DNA of 64,000 bases from Candidatus Liminaster caballi. GTDB lineage: Bacteria; Bacteroidota; Bacteroidia; Bacteroidales; UBA3663. Every line of letters begins with the position of its first letter. Position 1 is the stretch's first letter. The DNA lies in contig JAGHUA010000013.1 of NCBI GenBank assembly GCA_018065085.1, forward strand, positions 1 to 64,000, written 5' to 3'. The notes beneath the pieces are model-generated. The model was not told the origin of the DNA and searched no databases. It saw nothing but the letters and a program-made list of their open reading frames with translations. Shown one piece after another: positions 220 to 16,516 of the stretch. The translations under genes and the position numbers were made by a program.

Positions 220-2640
220 TCACTTCACGAGGCGAACCTCATAGATCTCACCCACCTGGCGATGAGGCTTAGCGACAAAACGTACGCGCACCTGCTGCTT
301 GCCTTCGAGCACCGATGCAGGAATCTCGTAAGTCTCATATTTCCACTGCGATGAGCGCCATTTCCTTGAGTTGTTGACCTCACGCACAAGGTTGTCGTCA
401 ATATAAAGATCATACTCGCACGTACGCCATTCGTCCTGACCCCAATAGCGCACACGGAGCGAGAGATTACGCTCGCCGCCCGTCTGCATCAGATAGCTGA
501 ACGAACCGCCGTCGCGTGCATCGCGGAAAGCCACGCTGTTGGTGACGCCTGTGTTCGACTTGCCGGTGATCTCCATGAAGTGGTCGCTCTCCGGCTGCTG
601 TTCGCCCGGCTGCACCTTATCGGTGGTGCGGGCATCGAGAGCCAGACGCTCCTTCTCCTCGGCAGCGAGTTTGTCAAGGTACTCCTTATAGCCGTCAGCA
701 CTGAGCGCCAGCCAATAGAGCATGTAGCGGCTGTCATGCAGTTCGAAGAAAGGAATAAGTTCACCCGTAACATCCTGCGAAGCATCGAGTTGAGGCGCAT
801 TTTCCATGCGTGTACGGAGTGTGAAATGCAGAGGCTTGCCAGGCACAGGAACGAGGTCGTTGGCAATATCCTCGACGTTGTTTGCCACGAGGTAGGGAGC
901 CTGATCGACAGGCAGCTTCCTGCCCGAAGCCATCTGACCGAAACGGCTGTCGTCGGCCAGAAGTCCGCGAAGGTCTTCGTTGCCCGTCTTCATGGCGAGG
1001 GTCACAGGGCCGTAGAGAATGGCGACGTACTGAGGCACGTTAGGCATGTGTTCGATAGAGGCATGCATCGGGAACTCAACGTCGATGACGTCGCCCTTCT
1101 TCCATTTGCGCTGGATGGTGACAAAATCCGCCTTATCCGACTGGCTCTCAACGTCGAGCTTGCCGTTGACGCTGACCTTAAAGTGGCTGCACCATGCCGG
1201 TTTGCGCAGTCGCACGGCAAACTCGCCCTTGCCGCTGGCGATGGTGAGGCGCGACGTCTCGCCATAAGGGAACTGCGTCTGCTGGCTCACCACGATGCCA
1301 CGCTCCTTCCAGCGGAGCTCAGAGGCAGCGTAAAGGATGACCGAAAGGGTATCGACACTGCCCTTTTCGCCAGTGCGAAGGCTCTTCGTATAGATAAACT
1401 GTCCGTATTTGCCGTGGTTCTCCATGCCCGTACCGACACAGCACCACATAGCCTCGTTTGGCACCGAATAGTTGCGATAGTGACGCGGACGAGCCGAGGT
1501 GAAATAGACGTAGCCGCCGTGCTCAGGATGCTGTGTGGAGAGGATGTGGTTGAACGTAGCACGCTCGTAGTAGTCGGCCATCGATGCGTTGTCGGGATCC
1601 ATGCGGAAGAGGTCTTCGGTGAGCTTGAGCATGTTGTTGGTGTTGCACGACTCAAGGCCGTCAATGTCCTGCGTCCAGTCGATGCACGACTCCTTGCTCG
1701 GGAAATGCTCACGACGGCTGTTGCCACCCAGCGAGAGCGAACGGCGATTGACCACCTCATCCCAGAAGAAACGGCTTGCCTCCAGATAGTCGGCATCGCC
1801 CGAAAGCTCAGCTACACGTGCGAAGCCTACCACCTTGGGCACCTGCGTGTTAGCGTGGATATTGTCGAGGTGCTGACCATTGTGTTCCTTCATCGGACGA
1901 AGCAGCCACTTGTGCGAGTAGCGCTTGGCAGCATCGAGATATTTCCGGTCGCCCGTCATCTGATAGGCATCGGCCAGCACCTCGTTGATGCCGCCGTGCT
2001 CCATGCCGAGCATCTTCTCGACCTGCTCGTCGGTGAGGTTTGACGAGATTGAGATCATCCAGTCGCATGTGCCGATAAACAGCTCGCGGGCATCCTCGTT
2101 GCCGCAATAGAGCCACGCATCGCGCAGGCCTGCCTGAATCTTGTGGGTGTTATAGAACGGCACCCAAAGGCCCATGAAGGGACCTACGTTGCCCTTCTTA
2201 TACTCGCTGAACACGCGGTCGCTGCCCGGCACACCGCCGATGTAGCCCTTTGCCCAATCGGGATAGTTGCGGGCGGCTGCGTCGGCACATTCCTTGAGCT
2301 GGGCGATCATGTAGAGCATTCTGTCCTCACACTCCTTGTTGCCCAACGCCGCATACATGGCCATGGCCGAGAGATAATGTCCGCCCACATGTCCGTCAAG
2401 GCCTGCCCAGTTGGGGAAGAGCGGTGCGACCTCCTTGAGGCCTGCCTCCTTGCGGAACGGGGCAAGCAGACGATCAACGTCGTAGCGGAGAAGGGTGTGT
2501 ACGTTGACGTCCTGCGCGTGCTTTAACGGGCCATCGAGCAGGGTTACGTCGCTTAACGGGAACTCATTGGGATAGAGCTGCTCCTGGGCGTACGATCCAA
2601 CGGCCAGGCAAGCCAAGAGGGAAGCGATTAGGTATTTCAT
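220..2640 (-). CDS. Secreted GH127 beta-L-arabinofuranosidase
   Basis: An 806-residue protein with a signal peptide (about residues 1-19) of glycoside hydrolase family 127 (formerly DUF1680). These enzymes remove non-reducing beta-L-arabinofuranosyl groups from plant glycans or glycoproteins. The family's metal/catalytic signature is visible: Glu330-x-Cys332 in DGLESCNTNN and Cys400-Cys401 in WCCVGTGMENHG, matching the Glu/Cys and Cys-Cys zinc ligands, one of which is the nucleophile. The alpha/alpha-barrel occupies about residues 25-430, beta-sandwich domains follow, and the last 110 residues look like an extra carbohydrate-binding-type beta domain. It lies 38 bp downstream of the CotH-like gene and probably shares its promoter. 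The released arabinose would feed the operon at 30-39 kb. Exact linkage specificity cannot be read from sequence. Confidence 0.9.
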   Translation of the reverse strand: MKYLIASLLACLAVGSYAQEQLYPNEFPLSDVTLLDGPLKHAQDVNVHTLLRYDVDRLLAPFRKEAGLKEVAPLFPNWAGLDGHVGGHYLSAMAMYAALGNKECEDRMLYMIAQLKECADAAARNYPDWAKGYIGGVPGSDRVFSEYKKGNVGPFMGLWVPFYNTHKIQAGLRDAWLYCGNEDARELFIGTCDWMISISSNLTDEQVEKMLGMEHGGINEVLADAYQMTGDRKYLDAAKRYSHKWLLRPMKEHNGQHLDNIHANTQVPKVVGFARVAELSGDADYLEASRFFWDEVVNRRSLSLGGNSRREHFPSKESCIDWTQDIDGLESCNTNNMLKLTEDLFRMDPDNASMADYYERATFNHILSTQHPEHGGYVYFTSARPRHYRNYSVPNEAMWCCVGTGMENHGKYGQFIYTKSLRTGEKGSVDTLSVILYAASELRWKERGIVVSQQTQFPYGETSRLTIASGKGEFAVRLRKPAWCSHFKVSVNGKLDVESQSDKADFVTIQRKWKKGDVIDVEFPMHASIEHMPNVPQYVAILYGPVTLAMKTGNEDLRGLLADDSRFGQMASGRKLPVDQAPYLVANNVEDIANDLVPVPGKPLHFTLRTRMENAPQLDASQDVTGELIPFFELHDSRYMLYWLALSADGYKEYLDKLAAEEKERLALDARTTDKVQPGEQQPESDHFMEITGKSNTGVTNSVAFRDARDGGSFSYLMQTGGERNLSLRVRYWGQDEWRTCEYDLYIDDNLVREVNNSRKWRSSQWKYETYEIPASVLEGKQQVRVRFVAKPHRQVGEIYEVRLVK

Positions 2641-2678
2641 GTTCTTTTGTTATTTTTGGTTCTTTTGTTGTAATGCTG

Positions 2679-4658
2679 TCATTGACGGACAATCTTTCGT
2701 CCGCCCACTACGTAGATGCCCGACGGCAGATGTTCAGGCAGGCGGCCATCAGGCGAGAGCAAACCGCAGCGGCGACCCTGAAGGTCGAACACAGGCGTCA
2801 CGGCAACCGATGGAATATCATCGGCAACCGACTCAATGCCAACGGTATTCGACCACCAACCGCGATTGCGCAGCTGATTGATAACGATGTCTGTGCGACG
2901 AGGGAAATAGGTATTGACCAGGCGGTTGCGCTCGTTCTTGAAGAACGTATCGACCGTATAGCGGTTGCCACGCGACATGTATGGCTGGAAGTCACGGCGA
3001 TAGACGCCCCAGCGCGCCGACTCGTCATAGACGGCATTCTGCACCACATGATAGAGGCTGTCCCAGACCTGCACGGCCTTGCCCGGGGTGAGGAGGCCAT
3101 CGTCAGCGAGGAGCAGGTGGGCACGCCAGTTGAAGCGCGCCTTGAACTTAGGATTCTTCATCAGCTGGTGGAAGAAGCCCGACGGCTTGCCGGCATTCTT
3201 TGTCGAGGTCACATCGTCATATTCGCTGCCCAGGATCAGCTCGGTGTCCCAGCAGATGAAGCGAAAGCCGCAGATGTGCTTGTCGAAACGGCGGAAGGCA
3301 AACCAGTTGTGATGATCCCAGTCGTTGTTGCCGGCATAGAAGTTGATGAGCATGTAGTCGATGAAATCGTCCATATCGAGCAGCGGTGTGCGTTCGGGAT
3401 CAGGTTCGCCCTGAGGGTCAAGGCCGAGCAGGGCATAGTAGGCATCGCTGTTGGTGGCCGACACCTGGCTGATGAGCTCGGTCATCTCGTTCCATGCGTC
3501 GAGCGTGCCGTCAGCAGCCTCGATCATCTCGCCCGACAGTTCATCGACCTTGATGACGTCATAGTCCTTCTTCTTGCCGCCGTAGTGATAGGCACAGTGT
3601 TCCGCCGTGATGCGCTCCGACAGATTATACATGCCCCAATACAGGCCGTTGAGGAAGAGGTGGACGGGCTGACCCTGGCTGTGAGGCCATCCGAGGCGCT
3701 CCTGAATGCTGCGCGCCCAGAGCTCACGGGTGTACTGTGCACGCTGGCGGTTCGACTCGTCCCAATGGAGCCATGAGTTGCTGTGATGTGTGCGCAGGAT
3801 GAGATCCTCATACTTGTCGGCACCAGCATCGCCATAGACGGCGTGCTCCAGTTTCTTCGGGCCGTACTTTCCCTTGAACATCAGACGGAAGGCGTGCTTG
3901 GCGTTCTTCTCGGGCACACGGCTGTGACCGCCGTGGATCTTGATGCCGCAATCGAGCGTGACGTCATGATGCAGTTTGCCGCCAATGATCTCAAGGCTGA
4001 TGTGGCGCTCCCAGTCGCGACCTGCATGATCGCCGATCGGAGCTCCCGTATAGACATAGATGCCGCCGTTGACCGAGTCGAGTTCCTCGCCGAAGAGGAA
4101 GTGCGGATCGGTGCTTACAGAGACGATAGGCAGATCCTTGAGGCCCTGGATGATCTGATCCTTCGACTCGTTGACGATGCTGCGATCCATTGAGTAGTAA
4201 GCCGGCGCACGTCCGGAAATATCGATGTTCCATCCCCAGTTCTTCGGATAGCCTTCGGGAATGAGCGGCGTGCCGTCGGTGGATGTTGCCTGGCGCGTGA
4301 CGTTGTCGGGAATGACGTATGTGGCCGATGTGACAGCCGAGAGAAGGGTGTCATTGATCGCCTCGGCAGCACGCAGCACGCATGTCTTGCCGATGCTCAC
4401 CTTGCCGTTGGTCACGACCTTGCTCTTCATCGTCGGCCAGCTGCCATCGTTGGTGTAATAGACGGTTCTTCCCTCCACATAAGGCTTGACCGTGACGGGC
4501 ATCGCACTGGCATAGATGCCGTGCTTGCGACCAAAGACTGGCTTCTCGACAACCTCCACGCTGTCGGTCTCGACGTCCTGTGCCATGAGCGGCTGACACA
4601 GGGCAGCACCGAGCACGAAGGCCGATGCAAGAATCTGTCTGATTCGAGTAGATTTCAT
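2679..4658 (-). CDS. Secreted CotH-kinase-family protein
   Basis: A 659-residue exported protein (signal peptide about 1-27). Residues about 40-115 resemble a chitobiase/beta-hexosaminidase C-terminal-like beta domain (YYTNDGSWPTMKS). The rest is a CotH-type kinase-like domain, with AGNNDWDHHNWFAFR and FRFICWDTELIL matching its conserved Asp/Asn and WDxE positions. The C-terminus (VFDLQGRRCG...GIYVVGGRKIV) is a short module common on Prevotella secreted proteins. Spore CotH is a protein kinase; the role of the many exported bacterial homologues beside glycoside hydrolases is unsettled. Here it is the first gene of an operon with GH127 and has a clear promoter. I would not assign kinase activity without testing. 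Confidence 0.85.
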   Translation of the reverse strand: MKSTRIRQILASAFVLGAALCQPLMAQDVETDSVEVVEKPVFGRKHGIYASAMPVTVKPYVEGRTVYYTNDGSWPTMKSKVVTNGKVSIGKTCVLRAAEAINDTLLSAVTSATYVIPDNVTRQATSTDGTPLIPEGYPKNWGWNIDISGRAPAYYSMDRSIVNESKDQIIQGLKDLPIVSVSTDPHFLFGEELDSVNGGIYVYTGAPIGDHAGRDWERHISLEIIGGKLHHDVTLDCGIKIHGGHSRVPEKNAKHAFRLMFKGKYGPKKLEHAVYGDAGADKYEDLILRTHHSNSWLHWDESNRQRAQYTRELWARSIQERLGWPHSQGQPVHLFLNGLYWGMYNLSERITAEHCAYHYGGKKKDYDVIKVDELSGEMIEAADGTLDAWNEMTELISQVSATNSDAYYALLGLDPQGEPDPERTPLLDMDDFIDYMLINFYAGNNDWDHHNWFAFRRFDKHICGFRFICWDTELILGSEYDDVTSTKNAGKPSGFFHQLMKNPKFKARFNWRAHLLLADDGLLTPGKAVQVWDSLYHVVQNAVYDESARWGVYRRDFQPYMSRGNRYTVDTFFKNERNRLVNTYFPRRTDIVINQLRNRGWWSNTVGIESVADDIPSVAVTPVFDLQGRRCGLLSPDGRLPEHLPSGIYVVGGRKIVRQ

Positions 4659-4659
4659 G

Positions 4660-4692
4660 TGATGTATGCAGTTTGTGTATTGATGTATGCAG
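4660..4692. repeat. Direct repeat TGATGTATGCAG in CotH leader
   Basis: The 12-mer occurs at 4660-4671 and 4681-4692, 21 bp apart, which is two helical turns. It lies between the predicted start of transcription and the start codon of the CotH gene. It could be an operator or a duplication; no regulator is known. Confidence 0.45.
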
Positions 4693-4717
4693 GGTGTTGT
4701 TCAATCATTATTTGCCG

Positions 4718-4749
4718 CAAATGTACGTAATTATTTCATTCGGCGCAAA
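4718..4749 (-). promoter_or_regulatory. Promoter of the CotH-GH127 operon
   Basis: On the minus strand TTTG (4746-4749) is followed after exactly 20 bp by TACATTTG (4718-4725). This is the Bacteroidetes -33/-7 arrangement. It gives a leader of about 50 nt. Confidence 0.7.
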
Positions 4750-4904
4750 CACGCTGCGGAACAATGTGGGCCAATGGGTCAAATTTTATAACTTTTGTCT
4801 CAAAATTAACATGGTTTTGACAGTTTCATAAAGCAGAAAATGACATTTCCACGCGTCGGCGATAAAAATCTCATGCAGGTATGCGCGCATTCATTCTTTT
4901 TTAT

Positions 4905-4912
4905 TATCTTTG
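4905..4912 (+). promoter_or_regulatory. -7 element of pfp promoter
   Basis: TATCTTTG lies 43 bp before the pfp start codon. A -33 TTTG at the right distance is not obvious. The element rules out the upstream in-frame ATG at 4881, which would lie ahead of the transcription start. Confidence 0.6.
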
Positions 4913-4955
4913 CACACGAATAATCATAACAAACATCATAAATCAAATTTATCCT

Positions 4956-6599
4956 ATGGAAAAAAGTGCACTTCAGATTGCCCGTGCTGCCTATCAGCCA
5001 AAGCTTCCTAAGGCTTTGCGTGGCGCACTCAAGGCCGTAGAGGGCGAGCCAACACAGTCGGTAGCCGATCAGGAGGAGGTAAAGAAGCTCTTCCCTAACA
5101 CCTACGGAATGCCTTACCTCAAGTTCGAACCAACAGACGGTCAGATGACCACCGCCCAGATGAACGTAGGCGTGATCCTCTCCGGCGGTCAGGCTCCTGG
5201 CGGTCACAACGTAATCTCAGGCCTCTTCGACGGCATCAAGAAGCTCAACCCAAACAATAAGCTCTATGGCTTCATCCTCGGTCCTGGCGGCCTTGTTGAC
5301 CACAACTACATGGAGCTCACTCCAGAGATCATCGACGAGTATCGTAACACCGGCGGCTTCGACATCATCGGTTCTGGCCGTACAAAGCTCGAGAAGAAGG
5401 AGCAGTTCGACAAGGGTCTTGAGATCCTCAAGGAACTCGGCATCAAGGCTCTCGTAATCATCGGCGGCGACGACTCGAACACCAACGCCTGCGTGCTCGC
5501 TGAGTACTACAAGGCTATCAATGCCGGCGTTCAGGTAATCGGCTGTCCTAAGACCATCGACGGCGACCTCAAGAACAGCGAGATCGAGGCTTCATTCGGC
5601 TTCGACACCGCTACCAAGGTTTACTCTGAGGTTATCGGCAACATCATGCGCGACTGCAACTCGGCCAAGAAGTACTGGCACTTCATCAAGCTCATGGGCC
5701 GTTCGGCTTCGCACGTAACCCTTGAGTGCGCCCTTCAGACACACCCTAACGTATGTCTCATCGGCGAGGAGGTAGAGGCTAAGAACCTCACTCTCGACGA
5801 CGTTGTGACAAGTATCGCTGAGGTAGTTGCCGACCGTGCTTCACGCGGCATGAACTACGGCGTGGCTCTCGTTCCAGAAGGCCTCATCGAGTTCATCCCT
5901 GCCATCAAGAAGCTCATCGCCGAGCTCAACGACCTCATCGCTGCCAACCAGGCAGAGTTCGACAAGATCACAGCCGACGAGAAGATCGCATTCATCGCAG
6001 CTCACCTCTCTGAGACCAACGCTGCCATCTTCAAGTCACTCCCAACAGGCGTCAGCCGCCAGCTCGCCCTTGAGCGCGACCCACACGGCAACGTACAGGT
6101 TTCACTCATCGAGACAGAGCAGCTCCTCGCTGACATGGTTGCCGTGAAGCTCGCCGAGTGGAAGAAGGAAGGCAAGTTCTGCGGTAAGTTCTCTACACAG
6201 CACCACTTCTTCGGCTATGAGGGACGCTGCGCTGCTCCTTCTAACTGGGATGCCGACTACTGCTACTCGCTCGGTTTCAACGCTTCGATGCTCATGGCCG
6301 CAGGCAAGACAGGCTACATGTCGTCAATCAAGAACACCTACCGTCCTGCTGACGAGTGGATTGCCGGTGGTATTCCAATCACCATGATGATGAACATGGA
6401 GAAGCGCAACGGCGAGATGAAGCCAGTTATCAAGAAGGCTCTCGTCGAGCTCGACGGCAAGCCATTCAACTTCTTCGCCTCTAAGCGCGACGAGTGGGCA
6501 AAGGACACCTGCTTCGTTTACCCTGGCCCTATCCAGTACTTCGGCCCTGCCGAGGTTGCTGACCAGCCAACCATCACCCTCAAGCTCGAACAGGCATAA
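4956..6599 (+). CDS. pfp: Pyrophosphate-dependent 6-phosphofructokinase
   Basis: A 547-residue cytoplasmic enzyme that phosphorylates fructose-6-phosphate with pyrophosphate in a reversible glycolytic/gluconeogenic step. The PPi-type signature is direct: GGDDSNTNA, where ATP enzymes have GGDGS, and PKTIDGDLKN with the lysine typical of PPi use. SGGQAPGGHN marks the N-terminal nucleotide/PPi site and LMGRSASH the sugar-phosphate site. The length fits the long clade (about 550 residues) shared by plants and Bacteroidetes. The start at 4956 gives MEKSALQIARAAY and lies downstream of the -7 element. Strongly biased codons suggest high expression. A hairpin follows the stop. Confidence 0.95.
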   Translation: MEKSALQIARAAYQPKLPKALRGALKAVEGEPTQSVADQEEVKKLFPNTYGMPYLKFEPTDGQMTTAQMNVGVILSGGQAPGGHNVISGLFDGIKKLNPNNKLYGFILGPGGLVDHNYMELTPEIIDEYRNTGGFDIIGSGRTKLEKKEQFDKGLEILKELGIKALVIIGGDDSNTNACVLAEYYKAINAGVQVIGCPKTIDGDLKNSEIEASFGFDTATKVYSEVIGNIMRDCNSAKKYWHFIKLMGRSASHVTLECALQTHPNVCLIGEEVEAKNLTLDDVVTSIAEVVADRASRGMNYGVALVPEGLIEFIPAIKKLIAELNDLIAANQAEFDKITADEKIAFIAAHLSETNAAIFKSLPTGVSRQLALERDPHGNVQVSLIETEQLLADMVAVKLAEWKKEGKFCGKFSTQHHFFGYEGRCAAPSNWDADYCYSLGFNASMLMAAGKTGYMSSIKNTYRPADEWIAGGIPITMMMNMEKRNGEMKPVIKKALVELDGKPFNFFASKRDEWAKDTCFVYPGPIQYFGPAEVADQPTITLKLEQA

Positions 6600-6622
6600 G
6601 ACTATTGCGACAATACACAAAA

Positions 6623-6649
6623 GGGGCAAAGACGCACAATCTTTGCCCC
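6623..6649 (+). terminator. Hairpin after pfp
   Basis: GGGGCAAAGA (6623-6632) and TCTTTGCCCC (6640-6649) form a perfect 10-bp stem with a 7-nt loop. No T-run follows, so termination may be partial and the next gene may be read through. The right arm also contains ATCTTTGC, close to a -7 box, so it could double as a promoter element. Confidence 0.6.
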
Positions 6650-6677
6650 ATATTAATCTCCATAACTCCTTTTGCAG

Positions 6678-8546
6678 ATGAAGAAACTGTCAATACTCTT
6701 CATGGCGCTTGTCTGCAGCATCGCTCTGAGCAATGTTGCAAACGCCCAGATACATAAATGGGGCGACACGTCACGCCTGCGCGTCGAGGGCAACCATCTC
6801 GTCGATCAGGAAGGCAACCAGGTGATGCTCCATGGCGTCATGGACACCCCAAGCCCATATTTCAGCGGCTTCAGATGGGGTTACAACTGCGGCTACGGCT
6901 ATGAGTCAGAGTGCCTCAAGTACTTCGAGAAACTCTTCTCCGCCGTGACCGACACGGCACAGGGTTCGTGGTGCAATGTGTTCCGCCTTCACCTCGACCC
7001 ATGCTGGACAAACGATCCGTCGATCCCAAGCTCAGGCAGCGACACGGGCGAAGCCAACATCAGCCAGTTCTCAAAGAAGCGCCTGACCGACTTCCTCCAG
7101 TCGCTCTACCTCCCATTGGCCAGAAAAGCCAAGAACCACGGCATGTACGTCATCATGCGTCCGCCGGGAGTGTGTCCGCAAACCATCCAGGTGGGCGGTG
7201 CCTATCAGCAGTACCTGCTCACGGTGTGGGACGTGGTGTCGAAGATGCCTGGCACAAAAAGCTCGTCCGACTGGCTGAGCCTTGAGCTTGCCAACGAACC
7301 TGTGCGCATCGTCGATGCCAACGGCAACGAGACGAACGCTGCCATGCACGATTTCTTCCAGCCAATCGTTGAGAAAATCCGCGCCAACGGCTTCAAGGGC
7401 ATCATCTGGATCCCTGGCGGCACATGGCAGCAGAACTATCGCCCGTATGCAGAATTTCCTATCACAGACCCAATGACCGACGCCGACGGCAATCCTGACT
7501 GTCAGATCGGCTATGCGGTGCACTTCTACCCTGGCTGGTTCAGCACTTCCGACTCGCAGACAGACACCATCGCCTCGATACGCTCGTTCCTTGGCAGCGT
7601 GCCTGTGGTCAAGACTTCGCCTATCATGATCACCGAGGTTGACTGGAGCCCTCAGAACCCTAACGGTCAGGGCCACTACAACGAATCGGGTCAGTGGGTG
7701 CTGCCTAACTACGGCACATGGGCAACCGGCTCGACATCGAAGTTTGGCAAGGGTTTCAAGGCCGTCGTTGACTATTTCGGCAACATCGGCTGGACATTGA
7801 CCCACACTCACGACTACATCGACATCGACCGCTATCTGGCCGACAAGACCGTGGTTCCGGCGTTCACAGGCGCGATGAACGGCGATGCCTACGAGGCTTG
7901 TTCGGGTGCGTGCTTCAAGTGGTATCCGCAGTATGCTCACACCGAACACAAGGCCCGCGTATGGAACACCGACGAGTCGTCAGAGATGTTCCCTCTCAAC
8001 GAGTTTGAGTTCAATCCTTCGATCTGGGAAAACGGCACATTCGACCCTGCCACAGGCAAACTCGTGACCGGTCAGTACGGCTTCGGCGGCTGGCAATACG
8101 CTTCGCCACTCGACCTTAGCGACTATCAGTATGTGGTGGTCAAACTGAAGCGCAATGCTCCCGGAAGCGCATCGTTCCGCATGTTCTCAAAGAGCAGCAG
8201 CTACTGGTCATCGCCTTACATGACAGGCCTTGGCGGTCGCAGCACCATTGCCATCCCTCTCCACAACCGCAAGAATGACGACGGTTCGGCTTTCGATCCT
8301 TCGCACATCTATATTGCCGGTTTCTGGACGAACGGCGGCAACAGCGAGGCGATTTACATCGACCAGGTGTTTGTCAGCAACGACGGCTCAAACCCTGTCG
8401 GCATCGAGTGTCCGTCAATTTCCGACCTCTCCCCTGCCGCCGTCGAGACATTCAACCTCAACGGTCAGCGCACCTCCGACGATGCACGCGGTTTCGTCAT
8501 CCGACGCCTGGGCGACGGTCGCGTGGTGAAGGCCTTCGTGAAGTGA
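6678..8546 (+). CDS. Secreted GH5 endoglucanase/mannanase-like hydrolase
   Basis: A 622-residue exported enzyme with a signal peptide ending near NVANAQ. The first about 400 residues form a GH5-type (beta/alpha)8 barrel. The acid/base glutamate is in SLELANEPVRI and the nucleophile glutamate in IMITEVDWSPQ, with conserved histidines in FRLHLDP and VHFYPGW. Residues about 430-570 form a beta-sandwich, probably carbohydrate-binding. The end (VETFNLNGQRTS...GFVIRRLGDGRVVKAF) is the short C-terminal module of this lineage's secreted proteins. GH5 enzymes cut beta-1,4-glucan, mannan or related polymers; which one is not decidable here. An ATG at 6678 is preferred over the upstream in-frame TTG at 6672. 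Confidence 0.88.
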   Translation: MKKLSILFMALVCSIALSNVANAQIHKWGDTSRLRVEGNHLVDQEGNQVMLHGVMDTPSPYFSGFRWGYNCGYGYESECLKYFEKLFSAVTDTAQGSWCNVFRLHLDPCWTNDPSIPSSGSDTGEANISQFSKKRLTDFLQSLYLPLARKAKNHGMYVIMRPPGVCPQTIQVGGAYQQYLLTVWDVVSKMPGTKSSSDWLSLELANEPVRIVDANGNETNAAMHDFFQPIVEKIRANGFKGIIWIPGGTWQQNYRPYAEFPITDPMTDADGNPDCQIGYAVHFYPGWFSTSDSQTDTIASIRSFLGSVPVVKTSPIMITEVDWSPQNPNGQGHYNESGQWVLPNYGTWATGSTSKFGKGFKAVVDYFGNIGWTLTHTHDYIDIDRYLADKTVVPAFTGAMNGDAYEACSGACFKWYPQYAHTEHKARVWNTDESSEMFPLNEFEFNPSIWENGTFDPATGKLVTGQYGFGGWQYASPLDLSDYQYVVVKLKRNAPGSASFRMFSKSSSYWSSPYMTGLGGRSTIAIPLHNRKNDDGSAFDPSHIYIAGFWTNGGNSEAIYIDQVFVSNDGSNPVGIECPSISDLSPAAVETFNLNGQRTSDDARGFVIRRLGDGRVVKAFVK

Positions 8547-8570
8547 CGCTAAAAATCGAACAGAAATACA

Positions 8571-8600
8571 AAAGACCGACATTTAGATGCCGGTCTTTTT
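8571..8600. terminator. Bidirectional terminator between GH5 and PIN genes
   Basis: AAAGACCG (8571-8578) pairs with CGGTCTTT, followed by T-rich sequence on the plus strand and preceded by A-rich sequence. It can stop both convergent genes. Confidence 0.75.
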
Positions 8601-8624: not shown

Positions 8625-10337
8625 TCAATTCTCAGCCTTCTTGCTTCCGCCGCGACGACGACCGCCACGGTGGGTGCGCTTCTTTGGCGCAGGATTGCTA
8701 AGCAACTCCTTGTCTTCAGGCGAGAATGCAGGGAGATCAACGGTTGTTGCCTGCGACTCGCCTTCCGAAGCGTCGGCTGGTTCCTGAACAGGGGCAACCA
8801 CTACAGGCGTTTCAGTTGCTACAGGCGTTTCAGCTGCAGCTGCTACAGTTGCCACAGCATCATTTGACGCTGATGAAGGCGCCTGGGCAGGTGCTGATGG
8901 CTGTGCGGAAGATTGAACTGGCACTTGTGCAGGTGATTGAGCAGCTGGTTCTAAAGGTTCAGACTTGCGCTGACGCTCCTGATGCTGACGCTGTTCCTTC
9001 TGCTGTTCCTGACGCTGGCGTTGCTGCTCCTGCTGCAGTTTCTGTTGTTCCTGCTGCAGTTTCTGCTGCTCCTGCTTCATCTGGTTGCGCTGCTGGTCGA
9101 GCTTCTGTTTCTCTTCCTTGAGCTGCTGGCGCTGCTGGTCGAGCTTCTGAAGTTCCTGCTGACGCTGCTCCTTCTGCTGCTCCTGCTTGAGACGATCCTC
9201 ACGGTCGCTGCGACGCTCGTGTTTGTCACCCGGACGGAAAGCATTCTCGTCGAGCTTCAGATGTGGCACCTCGTCGCGCTTCGGCTGTGTGGTCAGATCC
9301 TGCATCCATGCGGCTCCGGCAGCACTCTGCAGGAAATGATACTGGCGTGTGTAGCTGTCGAGCTGCTTGAGGTCGTCCATCGTGCATGCCATCGGACGGA
9401 TCGGAGCATAGAGTTTGTCCCATGTCTCATCGTCGATGCTGTTGACACGCTGCAGGTCATCGCACATGCCAAGGCTTCGGATGGCAACCGACGCATCATT
9501 GGTGAGCAGAAGGATCTTCTTGCCCTCGGCAAACAGCTCGACCATGCGGCGGATAATGGCAGGATCAGCAAACGATGCGTGGTGCGACTCGCTTGTGATG
9601 CCCTCAATGCGCAGACGGTTCTCGCGCTGCTGACTCAGGATGAGACGCTTGGCAAGACGCGCTGCCACATTACGGCAGAGCGCAGGGTCGGTGAAATCGG
9701 CTTGCTGATAGTTGGTGGGTTCCTGCTGACATGCGAAGCGGTCAATCTCCTCGTATGTCTCAGACATAATCATGAAGCGTCCGCCTCTCTTCTTCATCAT
9801 CTTCGAGATGAACTCAAGCTGTCGCTCAAACATCAGACGCGCATTCACACGCGGATCACTGTGACTCGATGTGTGGCCCACGAGCAGTTCGAGCCACATG
9901 TTCGTATCGCTCAACACAATGTCATAGTCAAGCACCTGAGCGAGGATTGCCTCGAAGAAAAGGTGACGATCCTGGGCTTCCTTGAGGGTCAGCTGCTGCA
10001 CCTGCTGATCATTGAGCAACGGGATGCGGGCATTCCAAAGATCCACAATATCGCGAACGATGGCGTTGCGAGGTATTGGCGGAAGCTGTGTCTGTGTGTT
10101 CTTTACTCTTTTTTCACTCTCATGTTCGGTCGTAGGGGCCTCTGCTGCGGGCGCCTCCTGAACGGCTTTCTCAGCCTTGTTGACTTCAGGGGCAGCAACT
10201 TCGCCGGCAACATCCTCGACCGCTGTTTCTTCGGCAACTGGGGCAACTACCTTCTTGCGACGTGAGGTCTTCTTCACCTCCTTCTTCTCGTCTGCTACAG
10301 GGGCCTCCACATTGCTTGCGGTTGTGGATTTTCTCAT
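8625..10337 (-). CDS. PIN-domain protein with coiled coil and RGG-like basic tail
   Basis: A 570-residue cytoplasmic protein I cannot assign to a named family. Residues 1-80 are a charged Ala/Glu/Lys-rich linker. Residues about 135-295 read as a PIN nuclease fold of the PhoH2/YacL type: VLSDTNMWLELL (Asp144), MIMSETYEEIDRF (Glu193), SFADPAIIRRM (Asp258) and ILLLTNDASVAIRS (Asp281), i.e. all four acidic positions. Residues about 378-460 are a Gln/Glu/Lys/Arg coiled coil with near-identical heptads (QQEQQKL), followed by a Pro/Ala/Ser linker. The last 19 residues are basic (KKRTHRGGRRRGGSKK), like RNA-binding tails. The layout suggests an oligomeric, RNA-tethered endoribonuclease; this is inference. 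It is monocistronic with its own strong promoter, and no antitoxin partner is visible. Confidence 0.75.
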   Translation of the reverse strand: MRKSTTASNVEAPVADEKKEVKKTSRRKKVVAPVAEETAVEDVAGEVAAPEVNKAEKAVQEAPAAEAPTTEHESEKRVKNTQTQLPPIPRNAIVRDIVDLWNARIPLLNDQQVQQLTLKEAQDRHLFFEAILAQVLDYDIVLSDTNMWLELLVGHTSSHSDPRVNARLMFERQLEFISKMMKKRGGRFMIMSETYEEIDRFACQQEPTNYQQADFTDPALCRNVAARLAKRLILSQQRENRLRIEGITSESHHASFADPAIIRRMVELFAEGKKILLLTNDASVAIRSLGMCDDLQRVNSIDDETWDKLYAPIRPMACTMDDLKQLDSYTRQYHFLQSAAGAAWMQDLTTQPKRDEVPHLKLDENAFRPGDKHERRSDREDRLKQEQQKEQRQQELQKLDQQRQQLKEEKQKLDQQRNQMKQEQQKLQQEQQKLQQEQQRQRQEQQKEQRQHQERQRKSEPLEPAAQSPAQVPVQSSAQPSAPAQAPSSASNDAVATVAAAAETPVATETPVVVAPVQEPADASEGESQATTVDLPAFSPEDKELLSNPAPKKRTHRGGRRRGGSKKAEN

Positions 10338-10379: not shown

Positions 10380-10411
10380 CAAAGATAGTCGTTTTCGTCC
10401 GAAAAAACAAA
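10380..10411 (-). promoter_or_regulatory. Promoter of the PIN-domain gene
   Basis: On the minus strand TTTG (10408-10411), a 20-bp spacer, then TATCTTTG (10380-10387). This is a perfect match to the Bacteroidetes consensus and leaves a leader of about 40 nt. Confidence 0.8.
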
Positions 10412-15436: not shown

Positions 15437-16516
15437 TTATTCCTCGTCCTTGCTTGTTGCGTGCTTGTCGTCGAGGTTGATGACAGGCTTAACGACCAAA
15501 GCCTCGGCAGCAGGAGCCACGTTGAGCTGACCTGCAGGAGCGTTCAGAGTGTGAACCTGATTATAGACCTTCACGCCCTTGTTGGTGTTCTTGATGCTTG
15601 CATAGCGTGTGAGCTGACCTGCCTCGTCATACTCATAGTTTGAGCTTGCCACCTCATACCATGACGATGAGCCGTTGTTCCACTTCTGCTCGATGACGTT
15701 GAGGAGCTGACCGGCTGCATTGTAGCGGTTGGTGATGAGACGTGAGTTGATGTCGTCACGCTTCTGGTTGGCCTTGTGGCGGATCACGGTGGCAGTCTCT
15801 ACCTGACCGGCAGCGTTGTAGGTGTAGCGGGTCTTCGAGTCGTGCTTCAGCTTCTGCTGCTTGAGGTCGAAGGTGAAGTAGTCGAGCTGCTTGATCTTGT
15901 TCGAACCGTCCTCATAGCTCCAGCCATACTGGCATGACTGCTTGCGGTCCTTGCCGTCGCCTGTGTAGTCAGCACGACCTGTGAGGCGGCCCTGGGCATC
16001 GTAGGTGTAGGTCCACTCATACTCCGTAGCCCATCCGTTAGGCACAGCCTTCTGCTCCTTGATGCTTGTCACGTCGCCGTTAGCATCGTAGGCATAGACA
16101 AAGCGCTGGGCAGGAGCGATGCGCTTCAGACCCTCGCTATAGGTCTCCACAACCTCCTCAGTGAGCAGACCCTGCTCGTTGTATGTATAGAGATCACGGC
16201 CCTCAAGGCTTGCGTCCGCACGGAGAGCCTTGCCGAATGCCGGCTTGCCGTTCTGATAGATCACATGATCAGTCTGTACCATCTGCTTTGACTCCTTATC
16301 GACGGTGTATTTATCGACCGACACGATCTTGCCGTCCTGTCCGTAGTTTGTGACTTCCTTTCCGGTCTCATCGCCATTGGTGTCGAACACGTTGATGTCG
16401 CTCCACACTGTTGGCTCCTCGGCTGGTTCTACCGGTTCGTTCTTCTCACCTCCGCCGCAGCTGGTTGCAGCGATAAGAGTAGCGCACATAGCGCTCAATG
16501 CGAAAAATTTCTTCAT
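15437..16516 (-). CDS. YD-repeat-like lipoprotein
   Basis: A 359-residue predicted lipoprotein (lipobox ending at Cys20 in LIAATSC). After a Gly/Glu/Pro linker the chain is built of short strand repeats, each with a Tyr-Asp or Tyr-Asn-x-x-Gly turn (YTYDAQGRLT, YTYNAAGQVE, YEYDEAGQLT). These resemble RHS/YD repeats, and about seven to eight copies are visible. Such proteins form beta-coiled surface structures; no specific function can be assigned. It is the first gene ahead of ligA, separated by 37 bp, with a perfect-consensus promoter upstream. The link to ligase is probably positional only. Confidence 0.75.
   Translation of the reverse strand: MKKFFALSAMCATLIAATSCGGGEKNEPVEPAEEPTVWSDINVFDTNGDETGKEVTNYGQDGKIVSVDKYTVDKESKQMVQTDHVIYQNGKPAFGKALRADASLEGRDLYTYNEQGLLTEEVVETYSEGLKRIAPAQRFVYAYDANGDVTSIKEQKAVPNGWATEYEWTYTYDAQGRLTGRADYTGDGKDRKQSCQYGWSYEDGSNKIKQLDYFTFDLKQQKLKHDSKTRYTYNAAGQVETATVIRHKANQKRDDINSRLITNRYNAAGQLLNVIEQKWNNGSSSWYEVASSNYEYDEAGQLTRYASIKNTNKGVKVYNQVHTLNAPAGQLNVAPAAEALVVKPVINLDDKHATSKDEE

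Follow-up and report, generated by a model that had tools for sequence, protein, structure and literature searches.

The PhoH2 proteins of Bacteroidales feature a PIN_4 domain together with a PhoH ATPase/helicase domain, and 86 of 119 sampled Bacteroidales have a PhoH2-type PIN_4. SMG6/EST1A of the eukaryotic NMD system combines a PIN domain with a 14-3-3/TPR region; the canonical acids of the former are D1251, E1282, D1353, and D1392 (PMC12923823). The Rae1/YacP proteins are bacterial, have a PIN-like fold, and occur without an antitoxin; they are small single-domain proteins of 159 to 174 residues in PDB entries. Rho of Bacteroides, an unrelated enzyme acting on RNA, carries a Lys/Glu-rich disordered region, and this charged region drives RNA-dependent condensation (PMC13269538).

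The gene described here lies in a window of 64,000 nucleotides from Candidatus Liminaster caballi (Table 1). As judged by structure prediction, its product almost certainly has the PIN fold of RNA-cutting enzymes together with their metal-binding acids. The protein is probably a lineage-specific, single-copy, metal-dependent PIN endoribonuclease that is tethered to RNA by disordered arms. Homologues sharing its layout are present in many genomes. The complete ones span 514 to 645 aa and consist of a low-complexity N-terminal arm bearing a basic patch, followed by the core, a conserved F-R-x-G motif, a spacer, and a basic Gly/Arg tail of the pattern KK-x-R-[ST]-x-RGG. Literature searches returned no description of this architecture of a PIN core with disordered arms.

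Table 1. Positions in the window of the PIN gene, its transcription signals, and the parts of its product.
Feature	Position	Strand	Evidence
Whole gene, PIN protein with disordered arms	8625..10337	(-)	570-aa ORF, ATG start; homologues of like layout
Bacteroidetes-type promoter TTTG-N20-TATCTTTG	10380..10411	(-)	pattern enriched in the window
Intrinsic terminator-like hairpin, 13 pairs and T run	8570..8599	(-)	just downstream of the stop
N-terminal arm, residues 1-88: low-complexity Ala/Glu/Lys/Pro and basic patch	10074..10337	(-)	full-length comparison
PIN-like nuclease core, residues 89-345	9303..10073	(-)	AF2 models, structural neighbors, mean pairwise identity 0.79, dN/dS 0.014-0.073
Asp144, first PIN acid (SDTN)	9906..9908	(-)	invariant
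Glu193, residue of the original prediction	9759..9761	(-)	invariant; probably one helix turn off the catalytic Glu
Glu197 (EEID), likely canonical PIN glutamate	9747..9749	(-)	invariant; aligned to EELD of PhoH2 PIN domains
Asp258, third PIN acid (ADPAIIR)	9564..9566	(-)	invariant; stretch aligned to PDHRIL of PhoH2 PIN
Asp281, fourth PIN acid (LTNDASV)	9495..9497	(-)	invariant; stretch aligned to VTKDINL of PhoH2 PIN
Conserved NAFRPGD motif after the core, residues 365-371	9225..9245	(-)	F, R, and G invariant in homologue alignment A2
Gln/Lys/Glu/Arg-rich helix, residues 377-462	8952..9209	(-)	Leu/Met every 7 residues (399-434); DNA tandem repeats
Low-complexity linker, residues 463-545	8703..8951	(-)	fast-evolving, mean pairwise identity 0.31
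Basic Gly/Arg tail PKKRTHRGGRRRGGSKKAEN, residues 551-570	8628..8687	(-)	KK.R[ST].RGG-like pattern in all complete homologues

The fold of the core was predicted in two AlphaFold2 models. Model 1 is based on a 19-sequence alignment and reaches a pLDDT of 77.6 and a pTM of 0.78 in the core; model 2 has as query L027, a 69%-identical relative, and reaches 74.9 and 0.74. The two models are less certain (about 40 to 67) near the second acid and the middle insert. Both show, at the level of prediction, the PIN fold with its central parallel sheet flanked by helices. After realignment of the best 1000 Foldseek chains, ranks 1 to 9 of model 1 are all PIN domains. Its neighbors include SMG6/EST1A (Z 8.4, 3.1 Å over 132 residues), Nmd4, SMG5, AF0591, and one domain each of Thermus and M. 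jannaschii—the last two being PIN domains although the titles of their entries do not say so. The top rows of model 2, again among the best 1000 chains, are nearly all PIN/FEN nucleases: PLEXO, SMG6 (Z 9.4, 3.4 Å over 135 residues), T4 RNase H, ExoIX, and Rae1, with the Taq 5' nuclease near SMG6. The Foldseek E-values of 0.02 to 0.05 are weak by themselves, and the region of the second acid is of low confidence; hence, the assignment rests on the consistency of the neighbors together with the motifs. A sequence search of solved structures yielded nothing but a chance match to a xylanase. The original prediction of a PIN nuclease is borne out at the level of the fold in that models from different queries both match PIN and PIN/FEN nucleases best.

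The same prediction had named Asp144, Glu193, Asp258, and Asp281 as the four PIN acids. All of them are invariant in 20 of 20 homologues, as are E196, E197, and D199. The three aspartates stand, whereas the canonical glutamate is most likely Glu197 rather than Glu193, because the EEID motif (Glu196-Glu197) aligns with EELD of PhoH2. D144, E197, D258, and D281 are thus the conserved candidate metal ligands in these 20 sequences. The alignment stems from a profile comparison of the core with 21 PhoH2 PIN domains from other Bacteroidales, spans 98 columns at 22% identity, and pairs, in order, EEIDRF with EELDKF, the ADPAIIR region with PDHRILA, and LTNDASV with VTKDINL; since 5 of 200 column shuffles reach its score, it is by itself merely suggestive. 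In the SMG6 rows, the first aligned residues are 53 in model 1 and 45 in model 2, both paired with SMG6 residue 1244, which is consistent with the first Asp of the core falling on D1251.

Compared with the described systems, the protein shares with the PIN_4 domain of PhoH2 the motifs EEID/EELD, D-x-x-I(L), and T(N/K)D in identical order. It differs by lacking the PhoH ATPase/helicase domain—no match to PhoH is found in the protein at E up to 1—and by having the disordered arms and an extra insert between the first two acids. The Pfam PIN_4 model scores 13.7 bits over the full length and 17.1 bits over the core against a cut-off of 21.9, and a spurious FtsJ match in that scan is at least as strong as the match of the core. 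Pfam, NCBIfam, PADLOC, and PHROGs give no match above cut-off. SMG6/EST1A is among the best structural neighbors of both models and shares the four acids, yet the bacterial protein has no 14-3-3/TPR region and no detectable sequence similarity to it. Rae1/YacP has a similar fold (Z 6.1-8.2) and likewise no antitoxin but lacks the long arms. Three further candidates were rejected: RNase Y, an enzyme with KH and HD domains, the NCBIfam match of which scores 17.2 bits against a cut-off of 454 and is confined to the helix and linker; RNase E, the NCBIfam match of which is confined to the same parts; and a defence gene, as the PADLOC matches (JetC, LmuB, PbeC) are confined to the charged helix or its surroundings.

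Outside of the core, the ends of the protein are retained while the linkers drift: all complete homologues possess both the basic patch of the N-terminal arm and the basic Gly/Arg tail. The patch, KKTSRRKK in the window and RSRKK in relatives, is kept in an arm of mean pairwise identity 0.42. The tail reads PKKRTHRGGRRRGGSKK, a short Gly/Arg patch of basic character with a mean pairwise identity of 0.52, and the PIN gene is the only long ORF of the genome that encodes an in-frame C-terminal RGGRRR. The RGG-like tail of the original prediction holds as such a patch, not as an RGG box of several repeats, since there are two adjacent Gly/Arg patches only (HRGGRRRGG). Likewise, the long coiled coil proposed there is a fair guess for the protein of the window but not a trait of the family, because the spacer differs between clades. 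One Leu/Met per heptad (L399...L434) is confined to the subclade of the window, where the helix is encoded by 21-bp and 42-bp tandem repeats. The L020 and L027 groups feature a charged helix with few or no hydrophobic residues—near zero in L027 to L034. The mean pairwise identity of the helix is 0.46, and as judged from these alignments, the spacer is the least fixed part of the protein. At L032:6844-6960, an in-frame array of 7-bp repeats (GGAGCAA/GGGGCAA) takes the place of the charged helix and still encodes a polar segment.

The PIN gene lies between a GH5 cellulase gene and a divergent TPR gene. The gaps of approximately 80 and 150 bp contain no plausible antitoxin ORF, in agreement with the original prediction, and the protein is much larger than a small single-domain VapC; the gene stands alone and is not that of a typical VapC toxin. 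The promoter is located about 50 to 74 bp upstream of the ATG and is one of 10 sites of its pattern in the window (0.64 expected); its -7 element is retained in other members of the genus. At the loci L027, L032, L033, and L034 of a second lineage, a CotH-like or glycoside-hydrolase-type gene ends about 40 bp before the PIN gene, which lacks the Bacteroidetes promoter elements; hence, it may be cotranscribed there. Across the loci compared, the neighbors vary from clade to clade, with no conserved operon partner and no shared neighborhood that would hint at an RNA-decay complex, and no structured RNA families were found in the region of the PIN gene. The neighborhood at positions 220-8546 of the window carries genes for plant polysaccharides (GH127 beta-L-arabinofuranosidase, CotH-like protein, GH5 cellulase), and positions 15437-16516 encode a 359-aa protein with an RHS-repeat match and a weak DUF3836 match that adjoins a ligase-like gene.

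The PIN gene is single-copy and strongly conserved but confined to two narrow lineages. It occurs in 13 of 15 genomes of the window's genus, the two genomes without it being 63% and 75% complete. Two samples of the order (294 and 393 genomes) and one of the phylum (395 genomes) gave significant matches solely in this genus. Scanning a single genome for each species of GTDB 220 gave 19 loci, all from Bacteroidales, and the hosts named in the record titles are herbivores in every case. The second lineage, L027 to L034, is at least partly another genus, where 3 of 61 sampled genomes carry the gene. Together with the order and phylum surveys, this makes it a lineage-restricted and patchy gene rather than a core gene of Bacteroidales. 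Homologues of the same layout are therefore not universal in the order, and the proposed role in Bacteroidetes RNA decay is not supported as that of a phylum-wide factor, with 0 of about 390 order-level and 395 phylum-level genomes outside of the genus. Strong purifying selection acts on the core (dN/dS 0.01-0.07), with medians of 0.063, 0.014, and 0.073 in three clades. In one MAG (G004; L024 and L025), two near-identical copies lie on different contigs, probably because of a strain mixture. An origin from phages, plasmids, or viruses was rejected: phages and viral contigs hold no relatives of the gene, and the sole plasmid match (Kovacikia) sits in an unrelated long hydrolase-like ORF and is a chance match.

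Catalysis, RNA as the substrate, RNA binding by the tails, and a role in decay are what we infer from these features. The core, here taken as residues 139 to 345 or thereabouts, would hold two divalent metals via Asp144, Glu197, Asp258, and Asp281 and would cleave single-stranded RNA. The N-terminal basic patch and the Gly/Arg tail would extend on the low-complexity and helical spacers and bind RNA or ribosomes with little sequence specificity. Such binding may raise the local amount of enzyme at its substrate, perhaps within condensates. A precedent for such arms in Bacteroides is Rho (PMC13269538). The enzyme would then serve housekeeping or regulatory RNA processing or decay and not act as the toxin of a toxin–antitoxin pair.

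Alternatively, the PIN nuclease may, like Rae1 or Utp24, be targeted to the ribosome or rRNA; its basic arms would keep it on ribosomes, where it would cut rRNA precursors or stalled mRNAs. This is unlikely: the PIN folds of Rae1 and Utp24 are among the structural neighbors and the basic arms and the strong constraint would fit, but neither fold is closer than SMG6 or the FEN-type folds, the distribution is narrow, and ribosomal genes are absent among the neighbors. The FEN-type DNA nucleases among the structural neighbors also mean that the substrate could be DNA. A nuclease of replication or repair with DNA-binding basic tails would match the proximity of PLEXO, T4 RNase H, ExoIX, and the Taq 5' nuclease to SMG6 in model 2; as the top rows of model 1 are RNA-type PIN domains, the chance of this is slim. 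Equally doubtful is an exchange in which a PIN nuclease swapped its PhoH-type motor for RNA-sticky arms, replaced a missing PhoH2, and forms its own RNA-processing condensate. A PhoH2-type PIN_4 was not found in the genome of the window or in G013 of the same genus, a weak lead given the relatedness of the two genomes and their completeness of about 90%.

A PIN domain with little or no catalytic activity that serves as an RNA-binding scaffold would agree with the long spacers and sticky ends and with the weak activity of the isolated SMG6 PIN domain (PMC12923823). It is nonetheless very unlikely, as three diverged clades all retain the four acids and the adjoining motif residues without change, unlike pseudo-nucleases. 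The smallest chance is given to descent from a VapC-like PIN domain, with the protein acting as an orphan toxin or an anti-phage effector. PIN nucleases are common toxins, and the presence in the second lineage is patchy; against this stand the lack of an antitoxin, the single copy, the near-universal presence in its own genus, the strong purifying selection, the restriction of the PADLOC matches to the low-complexity helix, and the absence of recognized mobile or defence neighbors in the loci examined. An RNA-tethered PIN endoribonuclease remains the probable reading.

Knowledge of bacterial RNA decay comes mostly from organisms with RNase E or RNase Y. The narrow and patchy distribution of the PIN gene does not suggest a core RNA-decay machine, and the idea of a Bacteroidetes RNA-decay complex narrows to a lineage-specific predicted nuclease. 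This adds a family in which a PIN nuclease carries charged disordered arms and which no model of the databases searched matches above cut-off. Being lineage-restricted and having conserved sticky ends, such a PIN enzyme would illustrate how gut Bacteroidales can evolve RNA-processing factors of their own.
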